64,000 bases of DNA from positions 806,001 through 870,000 of the forward strand of contig NZ_UEFQ01000013.1 in assembly GCF_900489465.1 (NCBI RefSeq). The letters run 5' to 3'. The notes beneath the pieces are model-generated. The model saw only the letters and a program-made list of their open reading frames with translations, was not told the origin of the DNA and did no database searches. Origin of the DNA: Aequorivita sp. CIP111184 (GTDB lineage: Bacteria > Bacteroidota > Bacteroidia > Flavobacteriales > Flavobacteriaceae). Below, in pieces: positions 4,931 to 34,897 of the stretch (position 1 is the first letter of the stretch; each line of letters starts with the position of its first letter). Position numbers and translations under genes: made by a program.

Positions 4931-5812
4931 ATGGCAGGTGAATGGGAAGGCAAAAGCAAAGGAACCGTTTTAGGATATAAAATCTTTATATTCTTTATCA
5001 GAAAATTAGGTGTTCGCGCCGCTTATGGACTGCTTTATTTTGTAGCTCTCTATTATGTTTTTTTTGCTGGAAAAAGCACACGTTCCATCTACTATTATTT
5101 TAAAAAAAGACTCCAATACCCTTCTTTTAAAAGTTTTTTCAGCATTTATAAAAGCTACTATACATTTGGAAAAACTATTATTGATAAGGCCGCCATTTCT
5201 TCAGGTCTTAAAAATCAGTTTACCTATGAATGTGACGGAGTGGAAAACATCATTGAACTTCTCGATAAAAAACAGGGTGGGATTATGATTAGCGCCCACG
5301 TTGGTAATTTTGAGATTGCCGAATTTTTTTTCGAGGAAATTGATACTCGTTCACAGATAAGCCTTATTACTACAGACGCCGAACATCAAAACATAAAGGA
5401 GTACATGGAGAAAGTAACAGTGCGTTCCAAAGTGAAATTTATTTTGGTGAAGGACGATATGTCGCATATATTTGAAATAAACAACGCATTAACTAATGGC
5501 GAATTGGTATGTTTTACTGGTGATAGATATATGAAAGGCCAAAAAGTATTGTCTGAATCGTTGATGGGAAAAGAAGCAAATTTTCCCGCTGGGCCCTTTT
5601 TATTGGCAAGCAGGTTGAACGTTCCGGTTTTGTTTGTCTATGTAATGAAAGAAACAAACAAGCATTATCATCTATATGCCCGGCAAGCGGAAGTAAAAAA
5701 CCGCGATGCACAAGGCCTACTAAAAAAATACACTGAAAGCGTGGAATGGATGTTGAAAAAGTATCCACTTCAATGGTTTAACTATTTTGATTTTTGGGAT
5801 ACAAACGATTAA
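4931..5812 (+). CDS. LpxL/HtrB-family lysophospholipid-type acyltransferase
   Basis: Protein of 293 residues with an N-terminal membrane segment (about residues 30-48) and the family active-site motif His-x4-Glu in SAHVGNFEIAEFF. LpxL-family enzymes move acyl chains from ACP to a lipid acceptor at the inner membrane. Homologues are regular members of aryl-polyene and flexirubin clusters. Here it follows an ACP gene by 17 bases, so a cluster-specific acceptor is likelier than lipid A. Its true acceptor cannot be read from the sequence. Confidence 0.8.
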   Translation: MAGEWEGKSKGTVLGYKIFIFFIRKLGVRAAYGLLYFVALYYVFFAGKSTRSIYYYFKKRLQYPSFKSFFSIYKSYYTFGKTIIDKAAISSGLKNQFTYECDGVENIIELLDKKQGGIMISAHVGNFEIAEFFFEEIDTRSQISLITTDAEHQNIKEYMEKVTVRSKVKFILVKDDMSHIFEINNALTNGELVCFTGDRYMKGQKVLSESLMGKEANFPAGPFLLASRLNVPVLFVYVMKETNKHYHLYARQAEVKNRDAQGLLKKYTESVEWMLKKYPLQWFNYFDFWDTND

Positions 5813-5815
5813 GAA

Positions 5816-6733
5816 ATGAAGGAAGTACTAATAATATACTATTCGCAAACCGGACAGCTTTTTGATATTCTGAAGAATATATCTTCCACAATTTCAGATG
5901 AAAACGTGAATATTTCTTATTATGAAATTCTTCCGAAGAAAAAATTCCCTTTTCCCTGGAAGCAAGAAGAATTTTACGGAGCCTTTCCCGAAACCTTTCT
6001 TCAAATTCCCACGCCATTAGAAGTTATTCCTACTGAAATTATCCAGAAAAAATATGATTTGGTTATTTTGGGATTTACTACCTGGTATTTAACACCATCC
6101 ATACCAGTCAATTCATTTTTAAAATCTGAAGACGCAAAGACATTACTTGCTAATACACCAGTTGTAACAGTTTCAGCCAGCAGAAATATGTGGATAATGG
6201 CGCAGGAAAAAGTAAAAAAATTGCTGGTGGCAAACAATGCAAAATTGGTTGGGAATATTGCTTTGGTAGATAGAAATCTGAACCATATAAGCGTAATAAC
6301 AATCGTGCATTGGCTGATGGGTGGAAAGAAAACCAAAATGTTAGGAGTCTTCCCAAAACCTGGTGTTTCTGATAATGATATTAAAGCGTCTTCGCGTTTT
6401 GGAACTCCCATTAAAGAGGCTTTGCTTCAAAATGAATACTCAAGCCTGCAACAAAATCTTTTATCTGTTGGCGCAGTAAAAGTAGATCCTTCACTAATTG
6501 CCACAGATATTCGGGGGAATGTTGTTTTCACAAAATGGGCCAGCCATTTAATTAAAAAAGATGGCGAAGAAAGAAAGAAATGGCTCGTTTATTTTAAATA
6601 TTATTTGTTATTTGCAATATGGCTTATAGCCCCAATTGTATTTGTTGTATTTTTACTCACTTATTTTCCAATGTACCGTAAAATACAACGAAATAAAGCC
6701 TATTATTCATCAGTTGCATTAAAGCAAGATTAA
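5816..6733 (+). CDS. darA: Dialkylresorcinol condensing enzyme DarA-like
   Basis: The 305-residue protein opens with a flavodoxin-like fold (EVLIIYYSQTGQ, a phosphate-binding loop; then LVILGFTTWYLTP). It closes with one membrane helix at about residues 262-285. DarA and DarB together join two beta-keto chains into the resorcinol ring of flexirubins. The stop and the DarB start overlap by one base (TAATG), supporting coordinated synthesis. The call rests on this pairing and on memory of the family; the fold alone would only say flavodoxin-like membrane protein. Confidence 0.8.
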   Translation: MKEVLIIYYSQTGQLFDILKNISSTISDENVNISYYEILPKKKFPFPWKQEEFYGAFPETFLQIPTPLEVIPTEIIQKKYDLVILGFTTWYLTPSIPVNSFLKSEDAKTLLANTPVVTVSASRNMWIMAQEKVKKLLVANNAKLVGNIALVDRNLNHISVITIVHWLMGGKKTKMLGVFPKPGVSDNDIKASSRFGTPIKEALLQNEYSSLQQNLLSVGAVKVDPSLIATDIRGNVVFTKWASHLIKKDGEERKKWLVYFKYYLLFAIWLIAPIVFVVFLLTYFPMYRKIQRNKAYYSSVALKQD

Positions 6734-7866
6734 TGAAGAACGTATATATTACAAGGATTGCGAAGTTTTTGCCCAATGAGCCAGTTGAAAATGAGGCGAT
6801 GGAGGAAAAGCTAGGAATCATCAACGGGAAAACCTCAAAGGCCCGCCGAATTATCCTTCGAAACAACCAAATAAAAACACGTTATTACGCTATTGATAAA
6901 GATGGAAACGTAACTCATAATAACGCGCAACTTACCGCTAAAGCCGTTGAAGAATTATGTGATGAAACTTTCAATAAAAACGAAATTGAATTGCTCTCTT
7001 GTGGCACTTCCAGCCCAGACCAGATTTTGCCAAGCCACGCGGCTATGGTTCACGGTTTTTTAAAGAATGGAAATCTTGAAGTAAATTCTCCATCTGGAGC
7101 TTGTTGTAGTGGAATGAACGCTTTAAAATATGGCTATATGGCCATAAAATCTGAACAAGTGAAAAATGCTGTTTGCACAGGTTCCGAGCGTACTTCTTCT
7201 TGGATGAAGTCAGATATTTTTGAAGATGAAGTAGCGCATTTACAAGAAATAGAAGAGCATCCCATTCTTGCTTTTAACAAAGAATTTTTACGTTGGATGC
7301 TTTCTGACGGGGCGGGCGCATTTCTTTTGGAAAGTGAACCGAACGGAAAAACACCATTGAAAATTGAATGGATGGAAGGTTACAGTTATGCCTTTGAACT
7401 TGATACTTGTATGTATGCTGGCGGTGATAAATTGGAAGATGGAAGTCTAAAGCCGTGGAGCGAATATCCCGCAGATGTTTGGGGAAAAAAATCACTTTTT
7501 GCAATGAAGCAGGATGTGAAATTGTTGGGTGATAACATCCTTCAAAAAGGTGTTGCCAGTATGAAGTTGGCCATGGAAAAGCACAACATCACCGAAGACG
7601 ATATAGATTATTATTTGCCACATATATCTTCCTATTATTTTAAGGAAAATCTTTACAACGAAATTGAAAATCAAGGCCTTCATTTGCCTTGGGAAAAATG
7701 GTTTTTGAATCTTCAAAAAGTTGGAAATGTGGGTGCTGGTTCTATCTATCTTATGTTAGAAGAATTGGTGCATTCCGGGAATCTTAAAAAAGGGGATAGA
7801 ATTTTTCTTCAAGTTCCCGAAAGTGCCCGCTTCGCATATTCATATGCATATTTGACAGTAGTTTAA
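6733..7866 (+). CDS. darB: Dialkylresorcinol ketosynthase DarB (KAS III-like)
   Basis: Protein of 377 residues of the FabH/KAS III type, with Cys125 (SGACCSGMNALKYG), His297 (YLPHISSYYF) and Asn332 (VGNVGAGSIY), the full Cys-His-Asn triad. DarB condenses two acyl thioesters into a 1,3-diketo intermediate that DarA converts to the ring. This gives the non-polyene half of a flexirubin. It overlaps darA by one base and abuts the following hotdog gene directly. Confidence 0.88.
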   Translation: MKNVYITRIAKFLPNEPVENEAMEEKLGIINGKTSKARRIILRNNQIKTRYYAIDKDGNVTHNNAQLTAKAVEELCDETFNKNEIELLSCGTSSPDQILPSHAAMVHGFLKNGNLEVNSPSGACCSGMNALKYGYMAIKSEQVKNAVCTGSERTSSWMKSDIFEDEVAHLQEIEEHPILAFNKEFLRWMLSDGAGAFLLESEPNGKTPLKIEWMEGYSYAFELDTCMYAGGDKLEDGSLKPWSEYPADVWGKKSLFAMKQDVKLLGDNILQKGVASMKLAMEKHNITEDDIDYYLPHISSYYFKENLYNEIENQGLHLPWEKWFLNLQKVGNVGAGSIYLMLEELVHSGNLKKGDRIFLQVPESARFAYSYAYLTVV

Positions 7867-8767: not shown

Positions 8768-9169
8768 ATGAAGAAAAAAGAAGTGCCACAAGACAAAAGC
8801 AATTTGGAATCTGCAAATTTCCGTGAACTCTGTTACGCGGTTGACGAGAACGGAGAATACACAACAGAAAACAGTACAGGCTGGGAACCAAAAACTGTAG
8901 CGTTAAACAATGCAATTGACGATATTAACGAACGGATTGATGAAGCGAAAGCCCGAGTAATGAAAGGCGAAACCAGCCCCATTGAATATTACATGGAACT
9001 ACACAAAATGGACGTTGGCATTTTGGCGAGCTACGTTGGGTTTTGGCAATGGAAAGTGAAAAGACATTTTAAACCATCTACTTTTAAAAAATTGAACAGT
9101 AAAACTTTGAATAAATACGCTGAGGTTTTTGAGATTTCAGTTGAAGAACTTCAGAATATTTCAAAATAA
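8768..9169 (+). CDS. Unrecognised 133-residue protein coupled to the BtrH-like gene
   Basis: No family is recognised. The protein is hydrophilic and soluble, with a helical middle (IDDINERIDEAKARVMKGE, about residues 57-75) and a C-terminal stretch (KTLNKYAEVFEISVEELQNI) that resembles the last helices of a Cro/XRE-like helix-turn-helix. Gln-Trp-Lys and Lys-rich patches lie just before it. It starts two bases after the dehydratase-like gene and its stop overlaps the next start (TAATG), so it is likely made in step with the BtrH-like enzyme. It could be a partner protein or a small regulator. Confidence 0.65.
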   Translation: MKKKEVPQDKSNLESANFRELCYAVDENGEYTTENSTGWEPKTVALNNAIDDINERIDEAKARVMKGETSPIEYYMELHKMDVGILASYVGFWQWKVKRHFKPSTFKKLNSKTLNKYAEVFEISVEELQNISK

Positions 9170-10164
9170 TGGAAATAAACTTTACCCACCACCAATCTGC
9201 CCACTGCGAAAATGGAGTGGTTTCGAACCTAATGAAACACAACGGTTTCAGCGTGAGCGAGCCTATGGTTTTTGGTATTGGCAGCGGCTTGTTGTTTTGT
9301 TATATTCCGTTGCTAAAGGTAAATCATGCTCCTGTGATTACGTATCGCGCAATGCCTGGACATATTTTTAAAAAGTTCGCAAAGCGCACAGGCGTAAAAA
9401 TGAAACGTGAAAAATTTAGCAATCCAAAAGACGCTAAAACACGTTTGGATGAAAATCTTGAAAAGAATAATCCTGTTGGACTACAAGTTGGTATTTACAA
9501 CTTAGTTTATTTTCCGGATGAATACCGTTTTCATTTCAATGCTCACAATATGGTTGTTTATGGGAAGCAAGACAATCGTTATTTAATCAGTGATCCGGTA
9601 ATGGAAAACGTGACTTCCCTTTCAGAAAAAGAATTGGAAAAAGTGCGTTTTGCAAAAGGCGCTTTTGCACCTAAAGGGCATATGTATTATCCAATTTCGT
9701 TTCCCGAGAAACTGGAACTTGAAAAAGCAATCGTAAAAGGAATTAAAGATACCTGCAAAGCAATGCTAGCACCAGTTTCTTTTGTTGGCGTAAAAGGAAT
9801 TCATAAAATAGCGGGTTTAATCAGAAAATGGCCGAAGAAAAAAGGAATTAAAACCGCAAATCATTATTTGGGACAAGTGGTGCGAATGCAAGAAGAAATA
9901 GGCACAGGCGGTGGAGGTTTTCGATATATTTATGCTGCATTTTTACAGGAATCTGGGAAATTGCTTGGTAACGAAAAATTGATTGAACTGTCAAAAGAAA
10001 TGACAGAAATTGGCGATTTATGGCGAGATTTCGCCCTTGAAGCATCGCGTATTTATAAAAACCGTAGTGCTCAAACTGACAGCTACAATAAAGTCGCTGA
10101 CCAATTGGACCATATTGCCGATTTGGAAAAAGTGTTCTTTAAGAAGCTAAAAAAGGCAATTTAA
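9169..10164 (+). CDS. BtrH-like acyltransferase candidate (papain-like N-domain, DUF4872-type C-domain)
   Basis: Protein of 331 residues. The N-terminal half resembles butirosin BtrH, which transfers an acyl group from ACP to an aminoglycoside. A plausible Cys-His-Asp triad is visible: Cys13 (SAHCENGVVSN), His126 (FHFNAHNMVVYG) and Asp142 (LISDPV). The C-terminal half (about 185-331) is helical, as in the DUF4872 part of that family. It lies between the dehydratases and an ABC exporter. An ACP-dependent acyl transfer here could build the ester between the polyene acid and the dialkylresorcinol; this is inference. A cysteine protease role is the alternative. Confidence 0.72.
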   Translation: MEINFTHHQSAHCENGVVSNLMKHNGFSVSEPMVFGIGSGLLFCYIPLLKVNHAPVITYRAMPGHIFKKFAKRTGVKMKREKFSNPKDAKTRLDENLEKNNPVGLQVGIYNLVYFPDEYRFHFNAHNMVVYGKQDNRYLISDPVMENVTSLSEKELEKVRFAKGAFAPKGHMYYPISFPEKLELEKAIVKGIKDTCKAMLAPVSFVGVKGIHKIAGLIRKWPKKKGIKTANHYLGQVVRMQEEIGTGGGGFRYIYAAFLQESGKLLGNEKLIELSKEMTEIGDLWRDFALEASRIYKNRSAQTDSYNKVADQLDHIADLEKVFFKKLKKAI

Positions 10165-10192: not shown

Positions 10193-10936
10193 ATGATAGA
10201 AATAAACCAACTTTCAAAAAAATACAAAGGCGCCGAATTCTTTTCGGTAAAAGACCTTAATTTGAAAGTTGAAGATGGTGAAATTTACGGCCTGCTCGGT
10301 CCAAACGGCGCTGGAAAAACCACGCTGATTTCAATGTTAACTTCTTTGCTGAAACCTACTTCAGGCTCCTTCACAATTAACGGTTTGAATTTTAAGGAAA
10401 ACAAAAATCAATTAAAACAATTGATTGGCATTGTGCCGCAGGAATATGCATTGTATCCAACGCTTACAGCGTATGAGAACTTACAATACTTTGGAAGTAT
10501 GTATGGAATTAAAGGTGAAATCCTTAAAAAATCCATCAATGAGCATCTCGAGGTAATGGGGCTTTCAAAATTTGCCCATAAAAAAATAGATACTTTTTCC
10601 GGAGGAATGAAACGCCGCATAAATTTGATTGCTGGAATACTTCACCAACCCAAAGTGTTGTTTTTGGACGAGCCCACTGTTGGCGTAGATGTACAATCAA
10701 AAAACGTAATAATTGATTATTTAAAATTGCTAAATACGCAAGGAACTACAATTGTTTATACTTCACACCATTTGAACGAAGCGGAATTTTTCTGCACCCA
10801 TGTAGCCATAATTGACAATGGCGAAATTATTGTAAAAGGCATTCCTTCCGAATTGATAAAAAACCAAGCCGGCGCCCACAATCTTGAAGATGTATTTTTA
10901 GCACAAACTGGTAAAGCACTTCGCGATCATGCATAA
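10193..10936 (+). CDS. ABC transporter ATP-binding protein
   Basis: Protein of 247 residues with Walker A GPNGAGKTT (about residue 36), signature FSGGMKRR (about 139) and Walker B VLFLDEPTVGVD (about 158), followed by the switch His in YTSHHLNEAE. It energises the ABC-2-type permease encoded immediately downstream, whose start overlaps its last eight bases. The pair is probably an exporter of the pigment, a precursor or a toxic intermediate. The subtype (drug/lipid exporter DrrA/CcmA-like) does not fix the substrate. Confidence 0.9.
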   Translation: MIEINQLSKKYKGAEFFSVKDLNLKVEDGEIYGLLGPNGAGKTTLISMLTSLLKPTSGSFTINGLNFKENKNQLKQLIGIVPQEYALYPTLTAYENLQYFGSMYGIKGEILKKSINEHLEVMGLSKFAHKKIDTFSGGMKRRINLIAGILHQPKVLFLDEPTVGVDVQSKNVIIDYLKLLNTQGTTIVYTSHHLNEAEFFCTHVAIIDNGEIIVKGIPSELIKNQAGAHNLEDVFLAQTGKALRDHA

Positions 10937-12197
10937 ACTTTGGGCCTCCACATATAAAGAAATGCTTTTGCTGGTGCGTGATTTGGGCGGAATAGCAATT
11001 CTTTTTATAATGCCAGTTTTATTACTGATTGTGATTACTTTGGTTCAGGACAGTACCTTCAAAACCATCAGTGACATTAAAATCCCTGTGCTTTTGGTGG
11101 ATAATGACAATGGCGAAGTTTCAAAAAATATTATTGAAAACCTTGCAGAATCCAACTCGTTTGAAATCATTCAGAAATCTTCTGAAGAAGAAGCAAAAGA
11201 AGCAGTTTTCTCTGGAAAATATCAGCTTGCAATAGTAATTCCCGAAAACCTTTCAGCCTCACTTCAGAAGAAAGTTGACCAAAATGTAGAAGGAATTTTA
11301 TCAAAATTTGGACTGGAAGAAGATACTTTGAATATTACAAAAGAAGTTATTTCGCAAAAGGAAGTCCGTTTGTATTTTGATCCCGCAACACAAGTTAGTT
11401 TCAAATCTTCGGTAAAGAACGGTATCGAGAAAATGATTTCAAAAATTGAAACACAAAGCATTTACAAAACTTTTCAAACGGAATTGGACGAAGAAGATTC
11501 AGAACCAATTTTCGACACTGAAAACTTTATTGCTTTCAAAGAAATTCTTCCTACAAAAAACAACGAGGAAATCATTCCAAACTCAGCCCAGCACAACGTT
11601 CCAGCGTGGACGCTGTTTGCTATTTTCTTTATTATTGTTCCACTTTCCATCAATTTGGTAAAGGAAAAAAATCAAGGCACGTTTGTGCGTTTACGCACTA
11701 ATCCAGTAAGTTACGCAACCGTTTTGGGCGGAAAAACAATTGTTTATTTGGGTGTTTGTTTAATACAATTTACGTTGATGTTGCTTGTTGGAATTTATCT
11801 TTTTCCAGCTATAGGTCTTCCGGGAGTTGATGTTTCAGGGAAATTGCCAATGCTTTATATTGTTGCGCTTTTCTCCGGTTTGGCTGCAATAGGCTTGGGA
11901 TTACTTATGGGAACCATTGCAAAAACACAGGAACAAGCAGCTCCGTTTGGAGCCACGTCGGTTGTTATTTTGGCTGCGCTTGGTGGGGTTTGGGTCCCCG
12001 TTTTTGTAATGCCGAAGTTTATGCAATTAGTTTCCAAAATTTCCCCGATGAATTGGGGTTTGGAAGCATTCTACGATGTATTTTTAAGAAATGTGGGATT
12101 TGCTAAAATCCTTCCCGAAATTTCGTTATTATTGTTGTTCTTCCTCACAACAATCATAATTGCAATAATTTATAATAGAAAAAAGAATGCCGTCTGA
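10929..12197 (+). CDS. ABC-2 type transporter permease
   Basis: Protein of 422 residues with the YhfK/YbhR-type layout: one N-terminal helix (about 20-40), a large extracytoplasmic domain (about 45-230), then five or so helices to the C-terminus (LFAIFFIIVPLSINLV, the LMLLVGIYLF and ALFSGLAAIGLGLLMG segments, a helix near 340-360 and a last one at 400-417). It forms the exporter with the preceding ATPase and overlaps the following thioesterase gene by 11 bases. Confidence 0.88.
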   Translation: MHKLWASTYKEMLLLVRDLGGIAILFIMPVLLLIVITLVQDSTFKTISDIKIPVLLVDNDNGEVSKNIIENLAESNSFEIIQKSSEEEAKEAVFSGKYQLAIVIPENLSASLQKKVDQNVEGILSKFGLEEDTLNITKEVISQKEVRLYFDPATQVSFKSSVKNGIEKMISKIETQSIYKTFQTELDEEDSEPIFDTENFIAFKEILPTKNNEEIIPNSAQHNVPAWTLFAIFFIIVPLSINLVKEKNQGTFVRLRTNPVSYATVLGGKTIVYLGVCLIQFTLMLLVGIYLFPAIGLPGVDVSGKLPMLYIVALFSGLAAIGLGLLMGTIAKTQEQAAPFGATSVVILAALGGVWVPVFVMPKFMQLVSKISPMNWGLEAFYDVFLRNVGFAKILPEISLLLLFFLTTIIIAIIYNRKKNAV

Positions 12198-14847: not shown

Positions 14848-15465
14848 TTGACCAAAACATTTCACATAAAAAGCTATTCCCATATAAAGAATCAAACTGT
14901 TTCAGTAAACGGTCAAGCTATTTTTAGGGATGAAAATGAAGATTTTCCATTATTCATAAAAAATGCTTACAAGTTTTTAAAAACGGATTATCCCAAGTTT
15001 TTTAAAATGGATAACTTAAGCAAACTCGCTTTTTTGGCAGCAGATGTATTGTTGAAAAATGAAAACTTAAACGAAGAAGAAAACAACATTGCGCTCATAT
15101 TTTCAAACAAAGCTTCCAGTTTAGACACAGACCGTAAACATCAAGCGGCTATAGAGAATGAAGCTGAATACTTCCCTAGTCCGGCGGTTTTTGTATATAC
15201 TCTTCCAAATATTTGTTTGGGCGAGATAAGTATTAAACACAGGCTTTATTCTGAAAATAGTTTTTTTATCTTTGACCGCTTTAATGCAGAACATTTGCAA
15301 CTGTACACTAACAGTTTATTGCAAAGTGGAAAGGCTGAAAAAGTACTTTGTGGCTGGGTAGATTTTGATGACAACAGCTATGAAGCGTTTCTATATTTAG
15401 TTGAAAACGTAGGTAAAATTGAACACAACACGGAAGAAATAACCAGATTATACAACATATTATGA
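14848..15465 (+). CDS. Half-length ketosynthase-like protein without catalytic Cys (mini chain-length-factor candidate)
   Basis: Protein of 205 residues that aligns by eye with only the N-terminal half of a ketosynthase: SPAVFVYTLPNICLGEISIK (residues 111-130) matches the FabF stretch before the active site, and SLLQSGKAEKVLCGW matches the helix and strand after it. The active-site Cys position falls in FIFDRFNAEH, with no Cys, and the C-terminal half with both His is missing. Cys123 belongs to an upstream loop. It starts at a TTG three bases after the methyltransferase and overlaps the next ACP by four bases. It recalls the short ApeC-like partner of aryl-polyene ketosynthases. Confidence 0.7.
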   Translation: MTKTFHIKSYSHIKNQTVSVNGQAIFRDENEDFPLFIKNAYKFLKTDYPKFFKMDNLSKLAFLAADVLLKNENLNEEENNIALIFSNKASSLDTDRKHQAAIENEAEYFPSPAVFVYTLPNICLGEISIKHRLYSENSFFIFDRFNAEHLQLYTNSLLQSGKAEKVLCGWVDFDDNSYEAFLYLVENVGKIEHNTEEITRLYNIL

Positions 15466-15719
15466 GCGAATTGAAAGAAGAATTAAAAGCGAAAATCATT
15501 GAACAGTTAAATCTCGAAGACGTTTCAGTAGCTGAAATTGCAGACGACGATGCACTCTTTGGTGACGGCCTTGGCTTGGATTCCATTGATGCTTTGGAAC
15601 TTATCGTAATGCTGGACAAAGATTACGGCATCCGTTTGAGCGATCCAAAAGAAGGAAGAAAGATTTTTGAATCTGTACAAGTGATGGCAGATTATATTGA
15701 AGAGCACCGCACAAAGTAA
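15462..15719 (+). CDS. Acyl carrier protein, second copy
   Basis: Carrier protein of 85 residues with the attachment site GLGLDSIDALELIVML (Ser40). It overlaps the mini-ketosynthase gene (ATGA) and precedes a full ketosynthase, so these three likely work as one elongation unit. The helix II sequence differs clearly from the first ACP, which suggests the two discriminate between partner enzymes. Confidence 0.9.
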   Translation: MSELKEELKAKIIEQLNLEDVSVAEIADDDALFGDGLGLDSIDALELIVMLDKDYGIRLSDPKEGRKIFESVQVMADYIEEHRTK

Positions 15720-15737: not shown

Positions 15738-16940
15738 ATGGGCAAAGGCGTAGCCATAACCGGAATGGGTATTATTTCTGCCATTGGCAACAATGTGCTG
15801 GAAAATTATGACGCGCTTATAAATGGAAGAAAAGGTATCACCCGCGTTGAAAATATTGAAACTATTCAGCGAGACGAAATTATGGTTGGAGAAATTAAAT
15901 TCACGAATGATGAATTGATTGCCCGACTTAATCTTCCGCCAGAAAATAATTATTCCCGTACAGCAATGCTTGGTGCTATAGCTGCAAAAGAGGCTTTTAC
16001 AAATGCAGGAATAACCAACATCAAAAAATACAAAACAGGTATCGTTTCCGGAACCAGCGTTGGCGGAATGGATATGACTGAAAAATATTATTACGAATAT
16101 CTTACCGAAAAAGCGCCGCAAAAATATATTGAAAGTCATCACGCTGGCGATTCTACACAGAAAATCGCTGAACAATTAGGAATTGAAGAGAGCTTGGTAA
16201 CAACAATTAGTACCGCTTGTTCTTCCGCAGCAAATGCAATTATGCTTGGCGCGCGTTTGATTCAATCTGGAAAATTGGATAGAGTTTTGGTCGGCGGTGC
16301 AGATTGCCTTTCAAAATTTACAATCAACGGTTTTAAAACTTTAATGATTTTAAGCGATACTTACAACACTCCTTTTGATGAAAACCGAAAAGGATTGAAT
16401 CTTGGCGAGGCTGCAGCATTTCTGGTTTTAGAAAGTGATAAAGTTGTAAAAGCTGAAAACAAAAAAGTGCTAGCCTACGTAAAAGGCTACGGAAATGCCA
16501 ATGATGCCTTTCACCAAACTGCTTCTTCAGAAAATGGTGATGGCGCGACTTTAGCCATGGAAAAAGCATTGAAAATCGCAGGCTTAAATCCTTCGGAAAT
16601 TGATTATATAAATGCCCACGGCACCGCAACAGGCAATAACGATCTTTCAGAAGGCAGGGCGATACTTCGCGTTTTTGGAGCTAATCTGCCAGAATTCAGT
16701 TCAACAAAAGCATTTACCGGCCACACTTTGGCAGCGGCTGGAGCGATTGAAGCGGTTTATTCCGTTTTGGCACTTCAAAATAATGTGATTTTTCCAAACT
16801 TGAATTTTAAAACACCAATGAAGGAATTTTCCATGATTCCACAAACGGAATTAAAAGAAAAAGAATTGAACACGGTGCTTTCAAATTCACTTGGTTTTGG
16901 AGGGAATTGTTCTACAGTAATATTTTCAAAAGAAGCGTAA
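15738..16940 (+). CDS. Beta-ketoacyl-ACP synthase, third copy
   Basis: Protein of 400 residues with a canonical start (VAITGMGIISAIGNN) and intact Cys161 (STACSSAANA), His294 (NAHGTATGNN) and His329 (FTGHTLAAAG). It is flanked by two KS-like proteins that have lost their catalytic residues, so it is the best candidate for the catalytic subunit of a KS/chain-length-factor-type polyene synthase. Its stop overlaps the next start by one base. Confidence 0.9.
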   Translation: MGKGVAITGMGIISAIGNNVLENYDALINGRKGITRVENIETIQRDEIMVGEIKFTNDELIARLNLPPENNYSRTAMLGAIAAKEAFTNAGITNIKKYKTGIVSGTSVGGMDMTEKYYYEYLTEKAPQKYIESHHAGDSTQKIAEQLGIEESLVTTISTACSSAANAIMLGARLIQSGKLDRVLVGGADCLSKFTINGFKTLMILSDTYNTPFDENRKGLNLGEAAAFLVLESDKVVKAENKKVLAYVKGYGNANDAFHQTASSENGDGATLAMEKALKIAGLNPSEIDYINAHGTATGNNDLSEGRAILRVFGANLPEFSSTKAFTGHTLAAAGAIEAVYSVLALQNNVIFPNLNFKTPMKEFSMIPQTELKEKELNTVLSNSLGFGGNCSTVIFSKEA

Positions 16941-18001
16941 TGAAGAAGGTATATATAAATAGTATCGCTTCCATTTCACCTCAAAAAACTTTTGACAATA
17001 CTATTTTTTTGGATGAAATTACCGATTACAACGATACTGTAATATTTGCTGTCGATCCAGATTACAAACAATACATTCCGCCTGCCGCCGCTCGCCGAAT
17101 GGCAAAAGGAATAAAAATGGGCGTGGTTGCTTCCAAAATTGCAATGGAAGAAGCAGGAATAGAAACTGTGGATGCAATAATCACAGGAACCGGAATGGGT
17201 TGTATGATTGATTCCGAGAAATTTGTGAGTGCCATTATTGACAATAACGAGCAATATTTAACGCCAACATCTTTTATTCAAAGTACCCACAATACCGTTG
17301 CCGGGCAGGTTGCATTGGGAATGGAATGTAAAGCCTATAATTTCACATACGTACATTCGGCTATTTCGTTTGAATCTGCATTGTTGGACGCAAAAATGCA
17401 ACTCGAAAACGACGAAGCGCATCATATTTTGGTGGGCGGTGTTGAAGAATTGGGAGATCATACCACAAAAGTGCATCGGGTTGTTAATCACATAAAGCCA
17501 AAGCCTGTAACTATTTCAACGGTTTTAAACTCTAAAACGAAAGGCGCGGTTTTTAGCGAAGGAGCTAATTTCTTTGTAGTTTCCAATGAAAAAAAAGAAA
17601 GCTGCTATGCAGAATTGGTAGCTGTTGAAACTTTTAATACGCTTCAAAAAGAAAAAGTTTCTGAAACAATTGAAAGCTTTTTGACTGAAAACAATTTGAA
17701 AATTGAAGACATTGATGTAGTAGTTTTTGGAAACAACGGCGATGTTGATTTTGATACATATTACAATCAGCTTTCCGAAGGGAATTTAAGCAAAACCCAG
17801 CAGGTTTTTTACAAACATTTGGTTGGTGAAAACAATACTGTTTCCGCTTTTGGTGTTTGGTTGGGTTCGAAAATTTTAAAAACCCAAACAATTCCAGAAA
17901 TTGTAAAAATTAACGAAATCAAAATTCCAGAAATTAGAACGGTTCTTTGCTACAACCAATACCGTGGCCAAAATCACAGCCTTGTTTTACTAAAAAAATG
18001 A
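16940..18001 (+). CDS. Catalytically dead ketosynthase homologue (chain-length-factor-like)
   Basis: Protein of 353 residues with thiolase-fold ketosynthase features (VDAIITGTGMGCMIDSE near 77-93; HHILVGGVEELGDH near 160). The active-site Cys position is His139 (FTYVHSAISF). The two His positions fall in VVVFGNNGDV and KHLVGENNTV, with His missing and Glu at the second. All three catalytic residues are therefore replaced, as in chain-length factors of type II polyketide synthases. ATG 16940 (TAATG overlap) is preferred to an upstream TTG inside the third ketosynthase. It likely pairs with that enzyme; a direct structural role is the alternative. Confidence 0.78.
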   Translation: MKKVYINSIASISPQKTFDNTIFLDEITDYNDTVIFAVDPDYKQYIPPAAARRMAKGIKMGVVASKIAMEEAGIETVDAIITGTGMGCMIDSEKFVSAIIDNNEQYLTPTSFIQSTHNTVAGQVALGMECKAYNFTYVHSAISFESALLDAKMQLENDEAHHILVGGVEELGDHTTKVHRVVNHIKPKPVTISTVLNSKTKGAVFSEGANFFVVSNEKKESCYAELVAVETFNTLQKEKVSETIESFLTENNLKIEDIDVVVFGNNGDVDFDTYYNQLSEGNLSKTQQVFYKHLVGENNTVSAFGVWLGSKILKTQTIPEIVKINEIKIPEIRTVLCYNQYRGQNHSLVLLKK

Positions 18002-25913: not shown

Positions 25914-27107
25914 ATGGATCCAAAACTAATTTCAGAAAAATTCAAAACCCTGAAATGTTGTGTAATTATTCCTACCTATAATAATTACAAAACACTGCAA
26001 CAGGTTATTGAAGGCGTTTTGGTTTACACAGAAGATGTTATTATTGTAAACGACGGATCCACAGATTCCACATATGAAATATTGGGTCAGTTTCCGCAAA
26101 TCCAACAAATTCATCTTTCAGAAAACAAAGGCAAAGGCAGCGCGCTGCGGCAGGGGTTTAAGCACGTTGATAGTCTGGGCTATAATTATGCAATTACAAT
26201 TGACAGTGACGGACAGCATTTTCCTGAAGATATTCCAGCGTTTATTATAGCATTGGAAAACGAAACAAATAAAGAACTCCTGCTCATCGGCTCGCGGAAT
26301 ATGACCCAGCTTGGCGTTCCAAAAAAGAGCAGTTTTGGGAATAAATTTTCCAATTTTTGGTTTTGGGTAGAAACAGGAAAACGTTTGCAGGATACGCAAT
26401 CTGGCTTTCGGCTTTATCCACTTTTTGCGATGAAAAAACTGAAATTTTACACTAAAAAGTTTGAGTTTGAAATTGAAGCAATTGTAAAAGCAGCGTGGAG
26501 CGATATCGAAGTAAAAAACATCCCAATTCAGGTACATTACGAGTTGGAAGATCGCGTTTCACATTTTCGTCCTTTCAAAGATTTTACGCGGATTAGTATT
26601 TTAAATACGTGGTTTGTACTTGTTACCTTTATTTATATAATGCCCCGAAATCTTTTCAGAAAATTAAAAAAAAAAGGACTCAAACGGTTTATAATGGAGG
26701 ACTTTTTGGGAAGTGACGACTCTTCTGAAAAGAAAGCTTTTTCCATCGCACTGGGTGTTTTTATCGGACTCTCTCCAATTTGGGGATTTCACACAATAGT
26801 TGTAATCTTTTTGGCTTTGCTTTTAAATTTAAATAAAGTAATTGCCTTTGCTTTTTCAAATGTGAGTCTTCCTCCATTTATACCGTTAATACTTTATTTC
26901 AGTCTTAAATTGGGCAGCTGGCTTTTGGGTGAAAATTTTGTGCTATCCATGACAGAGATTGATCCAAGTTTGGAGCTGATGAAATATTTAAAATCCTATA
27001 TTGTCGGCAGTTTGGCGCTTTCGGTAACAGCGGCTGTAGCATGCGGAATTGTGGGCTACGTTTTCTTAACGTTGTTTGAACGGAAAAAGATTCTTGATAA
27101 TGGGTAA
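25914..27107 (+). CDS. Glycosyltransferase family 2 fused to a DUF2062 membrane domain
   Basis: Protein of 397 residues. Residues 10-235 form a GT-A domain: CVIIPTYNNYKTL, VNDGSTDSTYE, GKGSALRQGF and the metal-binding TIDSDGQHFPED, as in dolichyl-phosphate-mannose-synthase-like enzymes. Residues 255-395 form a DUF2062 unit with several membrane helices (SIALGVFIGLSPIWGFHT; FSNVSLPPFIPLI). Such GT2 genes recur in aryl-polyene/flexirubin clusters, with an unproven acceptor. The end overlaps the next gene by eight bases. Confidence 0.85.
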   Translation: MDPKLISEKFKTLKCCVIIPTYNNYKTLQQVIEGVLVYTEDVIIVNDGSTDSTYEILGQFPQIQQIHLSENKGKGSALRQGFKHVDSLGYNYAITIDSDGQHFPEDIPAFIIALENETNKELLLIGSRNMTQLGVPKKSSFGNKFSNFWFWVETGKRLQDTQSGFRLYPLFAMKKLKFYTKKFEFEIEAIVKAAWSDIEVKNIPIQVHYELEDRVSHFRPFKDFTRISILNTWFVLVTFIYIMPRNLFRKLKKKGLKRFIMEDFLGSDDSSEKKAFSIALGVFIGLSPIWGFHTIVVIFLALLLNLNKVIAFAFSNVSLPPFIPLILYFSLKLGSWLLGENFVLSMTEIDPSLELMKYLKSYIVGSLALSVTAAVACGIVGYVFLTLFERKKILDNG

Positions 27108-30100
27108 CTGGTTTTTCAAAACATATCAATTTTTATTGAAAAATAAAATAGCAAGTGCGTTTGCCTTGCTATTGTTGCTTTTTGGGCTTATGTTGTTGGT
27201 TTCCCAAATTCGTTTTGAAGAAGATATTTCGAAATTAATTCCAATAAATAGTGAAAATCAAGATCTTCAAAAAGTTCTTAAAACAGTAAATTTCACAGAT
27301 AAAATTATTGTAAACATCCATCGAGATGATACAACAACTGTAGATCAACTTACCCAATATGCCACGGAATTTGTGGATAGCCTGCAGGCTCATTCCGGAA
27401 AATATGTAAAAAATATTCGTGGAAAAGTAAATGATGACGATTTATTGAGAACAATGGATTTTGTTTACGAAAACCTTCCACTTTTTTTAGATAAAAAAGA
27501 TTACAAAAACATATCAGGAAAACTTCAAAAAGACAGTATTTCAGCTATCACGGAGGCTAATTACAGAACACTCATTTCTCCATCGGGCATTGTATCAAAA
27601 GATATTATTTTAAAAGATCCGTTGGGTTTTTCATTCATCGCATTAAAAAAATTACGGCAGCTCGGTGTTACAGACGACTTTGTTTTAAAGGATGGTTTTT
27701 TGGTGAGCAAAGACGAAAAAAACATTCTTCTTTTTATTACCCCCAAGTTTTCAAGTAGTGAAACGGCAAAAAACACCAAGTTTGCTGAAGAACTTCACGA
27801 GCTTCAAAATGCATTGAACCTAAAGTATTCTGGAAATGTTAGTAGTGAATATTTTGGAGCTGCGCTTATCGCAGTCGCCAATGCGCAGCAAATTAAAAGA
27901 GATATTCAGTTTACCGTTGGCATCGCGTTCTCGTTGCTTGTTTTAGTCTTCATTTTCTTCTATAGAAAACTTTACGTTCCTATAATTCTTTTCATTCCAA
28001 CACTATTCGGTGGTTTGTTGGCTGTTGCTTTGCTGTTTTTAATTCGCGAAGAAATCTCGGCTATTTCTTTGGGTATTGGTTCTGTTTTATTGGGCGTAAC
28101 GCTAGATTATTCCCTGCATATTTTAACTCATATCCGTAATAACGAAACACTAGAAGGTTTATACAAAGACGTTACAGAGCCTATTTTGATGAGTAGTCTT
28201 ACTACAGCTTTGGCATTTTTATGCCTGCTGTTTTTAGATTCGCAAGCCTTACAAGATTTGGGAATTTTTGCCGCAGTTAGCGTTTTAGGCGCTTCTGTTT
28301 TTGCACTTTTCTTTATTCCGTTGGTTTACAAAAATCCGCTTTCGCGGAAACAGCAAATCAACGTTTTGGACAAAGTAGCAGACTATCCTTTTCACAAAAA
28401 TAAATGGTTGCTTATTGGATTGGGATTGGTGTTGATTGTAAGCATTTTTACGTATCACAAAGTAGAATTCAACAAAGACATTTCAAAACTAAATTATGAA
28501 CCTGCGGAAATAAAAGCCGCAATGCAACATTTGGATGAACTAACGGATATTTCATCAAAATCAGTCTATTTGGCAACCTACGGAAAATCTGTTGAGGGGA
28601 CGCTGCAGCTGAATGATTCCATCCACGAAACTTTGCAATTGCTGAAAGAGGAGGGTAAAATAAGTAGTTTTAGTTCAATAGGCGCCTTAGTACATTCGCA
28701 AAAGGACCAACGAAAAAAAATCGCGCAATGGGAACAGTTTTGGACTGAAGCCAGAAAGGATAGCACAGAAAACAATTTGATTGAAAGTGGTGCGGAAAAA
28801 GGATTTAAACCTACCACATTCATCAAGTTTTATGCATTTTTGGATAACGATTTTAATACGCTGAAACCCGAAGATTACCAGCAAATTCCTTCTGTGCTTT
28901 TGGAAGATTACATAACAACAGAAGCAGATTTCACGACCATTACTACATTAATAAAACTAGAAGACGACAATGCCTCTGAAATAAAAAGCGCTTTTAAGAA
29001 AATTCCGAATACAATTGTAATTGACCGCCAAGAGATGAACGAGACTTTTCTGGGCAACCTTAAAAGTGATTTCAATAGCCTAATAGGATATTGCTTGATT
29101 GCAGTCCTTTTTATACTTTTCCTCTTCTTCCGTAGTTTTGCGCTTACGCTGGTTACGGCTGTTCCCATATTTATTACGTGGTTTTTAACGCTCGGAATTA
29201 TGGGGCTTTTTCACATTCAGTTTAATATTTTCAATATTATCATTTCCACATTTATCTTTGGTTTAGGCATAGATTACAGTATTTTTATGACCAAAGGTTT
29301 ACTAAAGGAATTGCGAACTGGCGAAAAAGTTATGGCAACCCACAAAACCTCGATTATGCTTTCGGTGTTGACAACGATTTTGGGCGTTGGAGTTTTAGTT
29401 TTTGCAAAACATCCTGCACTGTATTCCATCTCCATCGTTTCGATCATTGGTATTTTTTCAGCCATGTTTACGTCGTTTACTGTCCAGCCTTTGCTTTTTA
29501 AACTTTTTATTGGCAGCAATACAAAACGCCCTATAACACCGCGTATGTTCATTCATTCGCTATTTTCTTTCGGCTACTTCGGTTTGGGCGGGATTTGTCT
29601 ATCAATTTATAGCATCACTTTGATGCCGATATTGCCTATCAGCAAAAAAATTAAAATGGGTTGGTTTCATAAAGTGATTGCAAAATTTATGAAATCTGTA
29701 CTGTACACAAATCCTTTTGTGAAGAAAAAAGTAATTAATGAAACTGGAGAGAATTTCTCAAAACCAGCTGTCATTATAGCCAACCATACTTCTTTTCTTG
29801 ATATTTTGGCGGTTGGAATGTTACATCCAAAAATCTGTTTTTTAGTGAATGATTGGGTTTATAATTCGCCAGTCTTTGGAAAAGCCGTGCAGCGGGCAGA
29901 TTTTTATCCAGTTTCTAGCGGTATTGAAAACAGTTTAGGGCCACTTCAGAAAAAAATAGAACAAGGCTACTCGCTGATGGCATTTCCAGAGGGAACTCGT
30001 AGCAATAGCAATAAAATAAAACGTTTTCACAAAGGCGCATTTTATTTGGCAAATCAATTTAATTTGGACATTCTGCCAGTTTTAATTCATGGGAATAGTG

Positions 30101-30798
30101 AGGTAAATCCAAAGGGTAGCCCAATTATAAAAGACGGAAGTATTACGGTTAAAATTTTACCACGTATTAAGGCAAACGAAAATTATTTTGGTGAAAATCA
30201 TACCCAACAGGCAAAGAAAATAGGTGTCTATTTTAAAAGTGAATTTGTGAAACTTCGCGAAAAGATGGAAGGTCCGAAGTATTTCCACAGAATAATTTTG
30301 GAAGAATATCGCTATAAAGGCGATGAGATTTACAGAAAAGTAAAAAAGGATTTAAAGATAAACGCACCAAGTTATTTTGAAATCATCCGGCGCGTGAACA
30401 AAACTGGAATTATTGCTCACATTTCGGATGATTCAGGTCAGCTTGATTTTCTTTTGACCCTCGATGGTCCCGATCGAAAAATTTATAGTTTTATTGAAAA
30501 TGCCGAAACCCGAACAATACTTCAAAACAGTTACATTACCCAAAAATATGGAAGGCTTCATTTTGCAGAATCAATTCAAAACACATTGCCCCCAAACACT
30601 GAAACTTTGATTTTCAGTTCAGAAAAAATGGCTTCGGAAGTGATACAACAATTGCCTAATCTTTCTATAGAAACCATTGTTTTATTAAAAGAAACTATTT
30701 TAGGGCAAACCGAAAATATTAGTACCTTAGGCTATCAAAATGTGTACGGAAATACTAATATTAGTATCTTTAAACAATCGGGAAACCCAACAGAATGA
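27100..30798 (+). CDS. MMPL-family transporter fused to PlsC acyltransferase and a degenerate methyltransferase domain
   Basis: Protein of 1232 residues. Residues 1-840 are an RND/MMPL-type exporter with two halves (helices near 15-33, 270-440 and 645-830; VLLGVTLDYSLH and IFGLGIDYSIFMTKG mark the two central helices). Residues 870-1080 are a PlsC-type acyltransferase with ANHTSFLD (about 893) and FPEGTRS (about 961). The last 150 residues match the place of a class I methyltransferase, but the SAM loop reads AHISDDSGQLDF in place of a Gly-rich motif, so this part is probably inactive. It is probably a lipid or pigment exporter that also acylates. ATG 27100 is preferred to TTG 27076. Confidence 0.85.
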   Translation: MGNWFFKTYQFLLKNKIASAFALLLLLFGLMLLVSQIRFEEDISKLIPINSENQDLQKVLKTVNFTDKIIVNIHRDDTTTVDQLTQYATEFVDSLQAHSGKYVKNIRGKVNDDDLLRTMDFVYENLPLFLDKKDYKNISGKLQKDSISAITEANYRTLISPSGIVSKDIILKDPLGFSFIALKKLRQLGVTDDFVLKDGFLVSKDEKNILLFITPKFSSSETAKNTKFAEELHELQNALNLKYSGNVSSEYFGAALIAVANAQQIKRDIQFTVGIAFSLLVLVFIFFYRKLYVPIILFIPTLFGGLLAVALLFLIREEISAISLGIGSVLLGVTLDYSLHILTHIRNNETLEGLYKDVTEPILMSSLTTALAFLCLLFLDSQALQDLGIFAAVSVLGASVFALFFIPLVYKNPLSRKQQINVLDKVADYPFHKNKWLLIGLGLVLIVSIFTYHKVEFNKDISKLNYEPAEIKAAMQHLDELTDISSKSVYLATYGKSVEGTLQLNDSIHETLQLLKEEGKISSFSSIGALVHSQKDQRKKIAQWEQFWTEARKDSTENNLIESGAEKGFKPTTFIKFYAFLDNDFNTLKPEDYQQIPSVLLEDYITTEADFTTITTLIKLEDDNASEIKSAFKKIPNTIVIDRQEMNETFLGNLKSDFNSLIGYCLIAVLFILFLFFRSFALTLVTAVPIFITWFLTLGIMGLFHIQFNIFNIIISTFIFGLGIDYSIFMTKGLLKELRTGEKVMATHKTSIMLSVLTTILGVGVLVFAKHPALYSISIVSIIGIFSAMFTSFTVQPLLFKLFIGSNTKRPITPRMFIHSLFSFGYFGLGGICLSIYSITLMPILPISKKIKMGWFHKVIAKFMKSVLYTNPFVKKKVINETGENFSKPAVIIANHTSFLDILAVGMLHPKICFLVNDWVYNSPVFGKAVQRADFYPVSSGIENSLGPLQKKIEQGYSLMAFPEGTRSNSNKIKRFHKGAFYLANQFNLDILPVLIHGNSEVNPKGSPIIKDGSITVKILPRIKANENYFGENHTQQAKKIGVYFKSEFVKLREKMEGPKYFHRIILEEYRYKGDEIYRKVKKDLKINAPSYFEIIRRVNKTGIIAHISDDSGQLDFLLTLDGPDRKIYSFIENAETRTILQNSYITQKYGRLHFAESIQNTLPPNTETLIFSSEKMASEVIQQLPNLSIETIVLLKETILGQTENISTLGYQNVYGNTNISIFKQSGNPTE

Positions 30799-33235: not shown

Positions 33236-34897
33236 ATGAAGTATTTGCAACGGTTTTTTGCGTTTACATTTCTTATAGCTTTTTTGAACTCATGCGGAGT
33301 TTCAAAATCCCTTCACGATCGGCCCGATGTTAGTGGTTATGATGCAACAATCCCACAAAAAGTAAAAATAAACGATTCAACATTTGTCGCCGGAAACAAT
33401 TTTTTTCTAAAAAACAAAAAAGGCCAGTGGGAGCTTTACGTGGAAGGGAATCCACTGCAAATAGGTGAAATCACTGGAAGCTTAACACAGGATTTAATGC
33501 AAAAACAAGAAGCTATTTTCTTCAACAAAGTGGAAAATTTGGTGCCATCAAAAACGCAGCAATATTTACTTCGAAAGTTTTTGGCTTGGTATAACCGCAA
33601 AATGTACCTGCACATTCCGGAGGAATACAAAACTGAAATTTACGGTCTTTCACAGTTTTCTTCTTCAAATTTTAGTGAGATTGGGGAACCATATTTACGG
33701 TTACTTTATTTGCACGGTGCACACGATATAGGTCATGCGCTGCAGGACTTGATGCTTGTTGGCTGTTCTGCTTTTGCTGTTTGGGGCGATAAAACTGCCG
33801 ACGGTGAGTTGCTAATAGGAAGAAATTTCGACTTTTATGCGGGTGATGATTTTGCAAAAGAAAAAATAATAGCATTCGTAAACCCTTCCGAAGGCCACAA
33901 ATTTATGTCGGTCACTTGGGGAGGAATGATAGGTGTGGTTTCGGGAATGAACGATCAAGGTTTAACGGTAACTATCAATGCAGGAAAATCTGAAATCCCG
34001 TTTGTTGCAAAAACTCCTATTTCCATAGTAACCCGGGAAATCTTACAATACGCTTCAACCATTGAAGAAGCGGTTGCCATTGCCAGAAAACGCGAAGTTT
34101 TTGTTTCTGAAGCTATTTTTGTGGGAAGCGCGAAGGACAAAAAAGCTGCAATTATTGAAGTCGCGCCAGATAATTTTGGTGTTTATGAAGTTGAAAATAC
34201 AGACGAATTGATTTGTAGCAATCATTTTCAAAGTGAAACATACAAAAACGACGAACGAAATTTGAAATGGATTGCTGAAAGCCACTCAATGTATCGTTTT
34301 GAAAGAATGGAGGAATTGATTTCTGAAGAAGATAAACTGAATGTGCCTGATGCAGTTGCCGTTCTTCGCAATAAACAAGGATTAAACAATAAAGAAATTG
34401 GATTCGGAAACGAAAAGGCATTAAACCAATTACTGGCACACCATGGCATTGTATTTAAGCCCGAAAGCAGAAAAGTTTGGGTTTCATCAAATCCGTATCA
34501 GTTGGGAGAATTTGTGGAGTATGATTTGAATGATATTTTCAAAAATAGGGAAGGAAACCCTGCAAAAAAAACTATTTCAACCCAAAAAGGGAATGTGCCC
34601 GAAGATCCTTTTTTGCATTCCAAAGAATACAAAAACTATGAAGAATACCGAATTTTGGAGCGCAAGGTTGAAACTGCAATAGAAAACAAGGAAACTATTT
34701 CTGCCGAAACTCTTTCTGGGTTACAACAAAAAAATCCCGAGTATTGGAAGGCCTATTATTTAACAGGAAAGTATTACTTTGAAAAAAAGTATGATGCTGC
34801 TGCTAAAAAAGCTTTTGAAACAGCTTTGACTAAGGAAATTACAACAGTTCCAGACAAAGAAATTATCGCCCATTATTTAAAAAAATTAGGAGAATGA
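33236..34897 (+). CDS. C45-family Ntn hydrolase/acyltransferase, lipoprotein
   Basis: Protein of 553 residues with a lipoprotein signal (FLIAFLNSC, Cys20). Its domain resembles C45 acyl-CoA:6-aminopenicillanate acyltransferases: Cys177 in LMLVGCSAFAVWG, where autocleavage before the Cys would free the nucleophile, followed by LIGRNFDFYAG, GMIGVVSGMNDQGLTVTINAGK and NHFQSE. Residues about 455-553 add helical, TPR-like repeats (YWKAYYLTGKYYFEKKYDAA). It is secreted and lipid-anchored, so any acyl transfer or hydrolysis would occur outside the cytoplasm. It overlaps the ligase gene by four bases. Confidence 0.78.
   Translation: MKYLQRFFAFTFLIAFLNSCGVSKSLHDRPDVSGYDATIPQKVKINDSTFVAGNNFFLKNKKGQWELYVEGNPLQIGEITGSLTQDLMQKQEAIFFNKVENLVPSKTQQYLLRKFLAWYNRKMYLHIPEEYKTEIYGLSQFSSSNFSEIGEPYLRLLYLHGAHDIGHALQDLMLVGCSAFAVWGDKTADGELLIGRNFDFYAGDDFAKEKIIAFVNPSEGHKFMSVTWGGMIGVVSGMNDQGLTVTINAGKSEIPFVAKTPISIVTREILQYASTIEEAVAIARKREVFVSEAIFVGSAKDKKAAIIEVAPDNFGVYEVENTDELICSNHFQSETYKNDERNLKWIAESHSMYRFERMEELISEEDKLNVPDAVAVLRNKQGLNNKEIGFGNEKALNQLLAHHGIVFKPESRKVWVSSNPYQLGEFVEYDLNDIFKNREGNPAKKTISTQKGNVPEDPFLHSKEYKNYEEYRILERKVETAIENKETISAETLSGLQQKNPEYWKAYYLTGKYYFEKKYDAAAKKAFETALTKEITTVPDKEIIAHYLKKLGE

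Follow-up and report, generated by a model that had tools for sequence, protein, structure and literature searches.

Flexirubins are a chemotaxonomic marker of the Bacteroidota, and the locus described here raises the question of which enzyme joins the two halves of such a pigment. The window, a 64,000-nucleotide stretch of Aequorivita sp. CIP111184 (contig NZ_UEFQ01000013.1, positions 806,001 to 870,000), carries a flexirubin-type gene cluster, and within it lies a gene for a BtrH-like, papain-fold protein, DarH, which a sequence-only reading had put forward as the synthase of the ester between an aryl-polyene acid and a dialkylresorcinol (DAR). Comparative genomics and fold matching support DarH as the candidate, the chemistry being inferred. 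We put the probability that DarH is the enzyme joining the flexirubin halves at about 0.72. It is the best candidate because each half is seemingly made without it, because it occurs where the resorcinol genes occur and nearly always, where checked, together with polyene genes, because its fold and residues are those of carrier-protein-dependent transferases, and because the competing acyltransferases track the polyene module and are missing from some genomes.

The gene itself is intact, with a forward-strand open reading frame (ORF) of 331 amino acids (aa) that starts with ATG and is uninterrupted by stops, the opposite strand being stop-rich in the single frame translated. Two Pfam domains span the whole protein, BtrH_N (aa 12-143, E 2.6e-52, profile positions 1-134 of 134) followed by DUF4872 (aa 154-327, E 7.1e-64, full profile). 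Scoring 514.7 bits where 300 is the cut-off, the protein is a clear member of NCBIfam NF053550, "BtrH-related acyltransferase DarH", a family name that says acyltransferase without a stated substrate, acceptor or test. The triad suggested from the letters alone, Cys13, His126 and Asp142, is located where it was claimed to be, and these residues are unchanged in all 165 distinct DarH proteins of an alignment of 170; they are also kept in four distant paralogues of the same alignment, three of which are 25-29% identical to DarH. Among candidate carrier-docking basic residues, Arg286 and Arg299 occur in 165/165 proteins, Lys297 in 163 (Arg in the other two) and Arg294 in 125, in a register with CcbD Arg312-324 that is estimated from aligned end points; the four paralogues have Lys, Asn or Thr at position 286 and Lys at 299. 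A signal peptide is not obvious by eye, which makes a cytoplasmic location plausible.

A confident AlphaFold model of DarH (predicted local distance difference test score, pLDDT, 90.1) shows a papain-like core and a C-terminal helical domain in a single chain, as in the BtrH, CcbD and CtaG transferases, and its best fold matches over most of the chain are CtaG, AziU3 and CcbD. Matches that fall there speak against a plain C39 peptidase. Sequence comparison with the Protein Data Bank (PDB) gave no credible match by phmmer, and a 19-row profile recovered mainly designed helical bundles and weak stretches of AziU3 (E ~0.2); among the PDB matches listed for the model there is no BtrH structure. 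CcbD and CtaG are described as carrier-protein-dependent transferases. CcbD and its counterpart LmbD, lincosamide condensing enzymes with ~12% identity to DarH, form an amide with an amino sugar and use Cys-His-Glu, whereas DarH has Cys-His-Asp and would form a phenolic ester. CtaG, of the closthioamide pathway, N-acylates a carrier-bound amine, whereas the acceptor of DarH would be a free phenol. BtrH, of butirosin, which has the Pfam BtrH_N domain as DarH does, is described as an acyl carrier protein (ACP):aminoglycoside acyltransferase. Acylation of the aminoglycoside by BtrH gives an amide, and the chemistry of AziU3/AziU2 in azinomycin is aziridine formation, not acyl transfer.

The resorcinol half appears to be made without DarH. 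In the available text of the relevant papers, darA and darB of Chitinophaga pinensis gave DAR heterologously (PMC3992019), P. chlororaphis makes free dialkylresorcinol from darABC and two regulators (PMC6403133), and DAR was made in E. coli with Azoarcus DAR proteins whose identities are not named there (PMC3949708). As DarA and DarB are reported to be sufficient (PMC3992019), we reject DarH as the resorcinol-forming enzyme. Another role within that half, in which DarH would supply or edit acyl or beta-ketoacyl chains for DarB, draws on the almost perfect tracking of DarB by DarH; we regard it as very improbable, given the same C. pinensis result and the existence of DarA-DarB pairs without DarG or DarH in the stretch read (genome G338 and locus L195, the latter on a Streptomyces plasmid). 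A polyene-resorcinol hybrid, with an ester predicted from mass spectrometry, is described for Azoarcus BH72, where the genes run darA, darB, darD, darE, ATP-binding cassette (ABC) ATPase, two toxin-antitoxin-like genes, ABC permease, ACP and ketosynthase (PMC3949708, available text). This order resembles that of the window, and it is by gene order alone that we liken the Azoarcus DarE, called a "BtrH-like peptidase", to DarH; the "darH" of that paper is a PilT-domain protein and distinct from ours (PMC3949708). Within the reach of our literature search, outside which lie preprints and most subscription papers, no paper found names, in its available text, a BtrH-like protein as the maker of the ester.

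To follow DarH across genomes we used two samples, the first of 296 Bacteroidota genomes and the second of 350 genomes from the order of G099, a sample-1 genome discussed below; the latter includes genus g28. Rivals and partners were searched in 28 genomes of sample 1, namely all those with DarH and G118, G238, G158, G254 and G276. A scan of genome contigs gave relatives (the best 80 of at least 540) that are all Bacteroidota records, and some counts below refer to 80 named loci. Genes at loci were labelled by BLAST to window proteins, and unnamed ORFs of loci lacking the LPLAT gene were Pfam-scanned for G099 alone. As DarB genomes we counted G238 (499 bits) and G017 (519 bits), despite scores under the family cut-off, and G619, where a contig end truncates DarB; we excluded G219, with a split match of 162 and 88 bits, and G634, with a partial one of 298 bits. 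In sample 2, 31 genomes with sub-threshold DarH matches (28 at 165-195 bits, 3 weaker) were counted as lacking DarH. Fisher tests on the resulting 2x2 counts ignore shared ancestry, and we give their p-values no weight.

DarH exceeds its cut-off in 23 genomes of sample 1, and DarB scores at least 518 bits in the same 23, so that DarH is present in 23 of 24 DarB genomes; G238 has its DarB-like gene without DarH, and no DarA homologue in the surrounding 20 kb. The polyene chain-length-factor-like protein (CLF; at least 140 bits, next best 36) is found in the 23 DarH genomes and in G118 and G238. At the polyene cluster of G118, which holds LPLAT, thioesterase, MMPL and C45 genes, no Dar genes and no ABC pair were called, and a search of the whole genome found neither DarG nor DarH nor the permease; DarH is absent from both polyene clusters seen without DarA. 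In G158, where a DarH-like protein scores a weaker 152 bits, neither a DAR-type DarB nor a polyene CLF match occurs. In sample 2, DarH exceeds its cut-off in 68 genomes, all with DarB (67 over the cut-off and one truncated at the edge of its contig), and is present in 68 of 69 DarB genomes. The exception, G338, whose DarB exceeds the cut-off, has a DarA-DarB pair with neither polyene nor DarG/H homologues found in the ~58 kb fetched, the stretch to which the polyene search was limited. Where checked, DarH nearly always occurs with resorcinol and polyene genes together, and it is absent from the few cases in which one module alone is seen (G118 and G238; G338 and L195).

Rivals for the ester step are the LPLAT/HtrB-like protein, the PlsC domain that the MMPL exporter carries and the AAT/C45-like protein, any of which could form the ester and leave DarH another job. 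All are acyltransferase-like and lie in the window cluster, each is present in 22 of the 23 DarH genomes of sample 1, and the E. coli acyltransferases ApeD and ApeJ have been proposed, in the available text, to fix a polyene to an envelope anchor (PMC8253772). We nevertheless consider this explanation unlikely, since its candidates follow the polyene genes where DarH is missing: LPLAT and C45 occur in 2/2 and MMPL-PlsC in 1/2 of the DarH-less polyene genomes. Conversely, G099 is the single DarH genome of sample 1 without all three, and it retains DarA, DarB, DarG, DarH, the transporter and polyene synthase genes. In sample 2, LPLAT is missing from 34 of the 68 DarH genomes and occurs in the other 34; within genus g28 it is found in 8 of 42, so that 34 of 42 keep DarH without it. 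In two genomes, G607 and G588, polyene genes accompany a DarA-DarB-DarG-DarH-ABC-ACP cluster, and another contig carries a further polyene cluster, this one with LPLAT, thioesterase, glycosyltransferase and MMPL genes and with no Dar genes called in the 20 kb read. The case against LPLAT is limited by G305 and G584, where it shares a 20-kb stretch with DarH, and the window cluster likewise mixes both sets.

For each of the 34 g28 genomes without LPLAT, G099 and 33 others, we retrieved the DarH locus. At the 33, DarG, DarH and both ABC genes are always present, as are ACP in 31 and DarA in 32 (a contig end truncates one); homologues of LPLAT, C45, MMPL or the thioesterase were called at none, the whole-genome search of g28 for C45 and MMPL-PlsC having covered G099 alone. 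Polyene synthase genes are linked in 29 of the 34, comprising 27 of the 33, G099 and G323 (~22-25 kb away). By Pfam, the left side of the G099 locus encodes phosphopantetheinyl-transferase-like, ACP-like, ketosynthase, FabA-like, enoyl-reductase-like and KduI proteins, and its right side a second phosphopantetheinyl-transferase-like protein and then two alpha/beta-hydrolase-fold proteins. In the conserved part of the LPLAT-less locus, DarH is the sole acyltransferase candidate found. The "ligase-like enzyme" FlxW of C. pinensis has also been raised in print as a possible means of joining the halves, a proposal offered without experiment in the available text (PMC3992019). In the window, gene order would allow FlxW to be either the cupin or the AAT/C45 protein, and the latter is also present in both DarH-less polyene genomes; that such a ligase joins the halves seems to us scarcely credible.

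The gene directly upstream, darG, is the constant companion of darH. Its TAA overlaps the ATG of darH by one base, at 9169; DarG is present in 23/23 DarH genomes and 0/5 others tested in sample 1, and it adjoins DarH in 80/80 named loci and 33/33 LPLAT-less loci. A predicted model and its fold match indicate an XRE/lambda-repressor-like C-terminal domain. Trp95, Lys98, Arg99 and His100 of DarG are invariant in 24 aligned sequences. The ABC permease keeps similar company, being linked to DarH in 21 of 23 genomes, while G017 and G269 have just unlinked 33-34% matches. DarH might belong to an export or processing module with the transporter, like the C39 domains of peptidase-containing exporters, and act on the pigment as a hydrolase or transacylase, releasing it or passing it on for transport. 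This seems to us improbable: in G269 and G017 DarH stands apart from the transporter yet still adjoins DarG, and the proteins that its fold matches over most of the chain are biosynthetic transferases.

For DarH as the ester synthase, we infer the geometry of the triad, the acyl-cysteine intermediate, the identities of donor and acceptor, the ester product and the roles of DarG and the transporter. The polyenoyl chain, as a thioester of an ACP (probably ACP2), would dock on DarH; His126 and Asp142 would activate Cys13 to accept the polyenoyl group; and a phenolic hydroxyl of the dialkylresorcinol made by DarA and DarB would attack the acyl-cysteine and release the ester, in an overall ping-pong scheme as described for CcbD. 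DarG may work with DarH as a docking or stability subunit or as a cluster-specific regulator, and the ABC transporter may carry the ester out of the cytoplasm. More tentatively, DarG and DarH could together form a two-protein phenol O-acyltransferase in which a repressor-fold partner has been co-opted for biosynthesis, within polyene clusters that have two interchangeable ends. A polyketide chain from ACP would then esterify a phenol with the help of an obligate XRE-fold DarG that, for example, docks the ACP, and DarG, DarH and the ABC transporter would lead the polyene to resorcinol where LPLAT, thioesterase and MMPL would lead it to another, perhaps lipid, anchor.

Several observations weigh against DarH as the ester synthase. 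The distribution of DarG equals that of DarH, and that of the ABC permease nearly so, and co-occurrence alone therefore cannot single out the ester maker or exclude an export module. Other proteins with BtrH_N and DUF4872 are encoded at a distance from any annotated ACP or pigment gene, and an acyl-ACP substrate therefore does not follow from the fold. Flavobacterial clusters such as that of the window contain the LPLAT, C45 and PlsC candidates all together. Polyene synthase genes were not found within ~30 kb of DarH in G590, G363, G346 and G467, and the G354 locus stops at a contig edge. At G099 the two alpha/beta-hydrolase-fold genes lie just past the ligase gene; their homologues are clear at one of the 33 other loci and weak at a second, most stretches ending before that point. 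Finally, single-module genomes are few, with two polyene clusters without DarA and two DarA-DarB loci without DarH.

As the sequence-only reading had it, DarH is central in the cluster, flanked by polyene, DAR, ACP and transporter genes (Table 1). The cluster also holds an ammonia-lyase-like gene and encodes FabG, ketosynthases, two ACPs, LPLAT, DarA, DarB, DarG, the ABC transporter, two FabZ-like dehydratases, a thioesterase, a methyltransferase, LolA2/LolB2, the MMPL exporter, the AAT/C45-like protein and an AMP-ligase; several of these names are labels based on family matches and position. DarA of the window has no Pfam match and a weak flavodoxin match in NCBIfam, and it adjoins DarB in related loci too. 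The ACP2 homologue is the last gene of the DAR operon in LPLAT-less clusters. A 205-aa protein without Pfam or NCBIfam match (14848-15465) adjoins ACP2/KS3 in Dar clusters and in the Dar-less G118 cluster, and a WG-repeat protein within the cluster (1492-2625) is present in 67 of the 80 named loci. The MMPL protein of the G118 polyene cluster has 812 aa, and, unlike in the fused protein of the window, its PlsC part was not found in the G118 genome.

Table 1. Features of the flexirubin-type cluster discussed in the text (window positions)
Feature	Position	Strand	Remarks
LPLAT (Lip_A_acyltrans)	4931..5812	+	main rival acyltransferase; follows polyene module
DarA, dialkylresorcinol aromatase/condensing protein	5816..6733	+	named by place beside DarB and literature
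DarB, dialkylresorcinol-forming ketosynthase	6733..7866	+	NF053539, 671.7 bits (cut-off 550)
DarG	8768..9169	+	NCBIfam NF053545/NF053536; N-terminal part and XRE/lambda-repressor-like C-terminal fold (~aa 67-133)
DarH	9169..10164	+	BtrH_N papain-like aa 12-143 (C13, H126, D142) and helical DUF4872 aa 154-327; proposed polyenoyl-ACP:dialkylresorcinol O-acyltransferase
ABC transporter ATPase of DAR operon	10193..10936	+	called in 33/33 LPLAT-less loci
ABC-2 permease of DAR operon	10929..12197	+	match in 23/23 DarH genomes, 0/5 others tested
ACP2, candidate polyenoyl carrier	15462..15719	+	homologue called in 31/33 LPLAT-less loci
Polyene ketosynthase (KS3) and CLF-like partner	15738..18001	+	belongs to aryl-polyene module
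MMPL exporter with C-terminal PlsC-type acyltransferase domain	27076..30798	+	rival candidate
AAT/C45-type acyltransferase-like protein	33236..34897	+	rival candidate

More distant relatives of DarH and DarB lie in other settings. A DarH-like group scoring 152-195 bits comprises L024-L027, 28 sample-2 genomes and a second copy in G359; the triad is kept in its four sample-1 members, whose loci have no cluster homologues directly adjoining. Long-frame DarB-like ketosynthases (617-675 aa), not counted as DAR-type DarB, occur in G276 (L101), G254 (L102) and, as a second copy, G182 (L103), at 380-405 bits, and in 16 sample-2 genomes (376-399 bits, frames of 624-641 aa); DarA, DarG and DarH homologues were not found in the three loci opened, L101-L103. 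Searches of plasmids turned up distant relatives only, in 64 records with DarH as the query and in 8 with DarB, and four of each were opened. In L188, L190 and L191 the BtrH_N/DUF4872 gene lies directly 3' of a GyrI-like, TetR or MerR gene with a 4-13-base overlap, and no annotated ACP is nearby; in the fourth locus, L189, it follows kynU. At the four DarB-like plasmid loci, tblastn found no DarH or DarG homologue in the stretch read. L195 carries a DarB-like gene and a 27%-identical DarA-like gene beside ACP, FabF, FabG and P450 genes, with DarG and DarH not found in the 19 kb read. In L193, L194 and L091 a TetR-like regulator adjoins the StlD/DarB-like ketosynthase (annotated in the first two, by eye in L091), and DarA and DarH homologues were not found in the stretch.

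The DarH family has already been named by NCBI, and what would be new here is the reaction, giving a phenolic ester rather than an amide, with the evidence for it. The enzyme that makes the flexirubin ester has, in the available text of the papers searched, been a matter of conjecture (PMC3992019), and our comparison narrows the question to one gene pair. Natural tests are provided by genomes that have DarH but lack LPLAT and by those whose polyene genes form two separate clusters. If DarH does form the ester, the BtrH/CcbD/CtaG type of transferase would extend from amide to phenolic ester formation and would offer a tool for linking polyketides to phenols.
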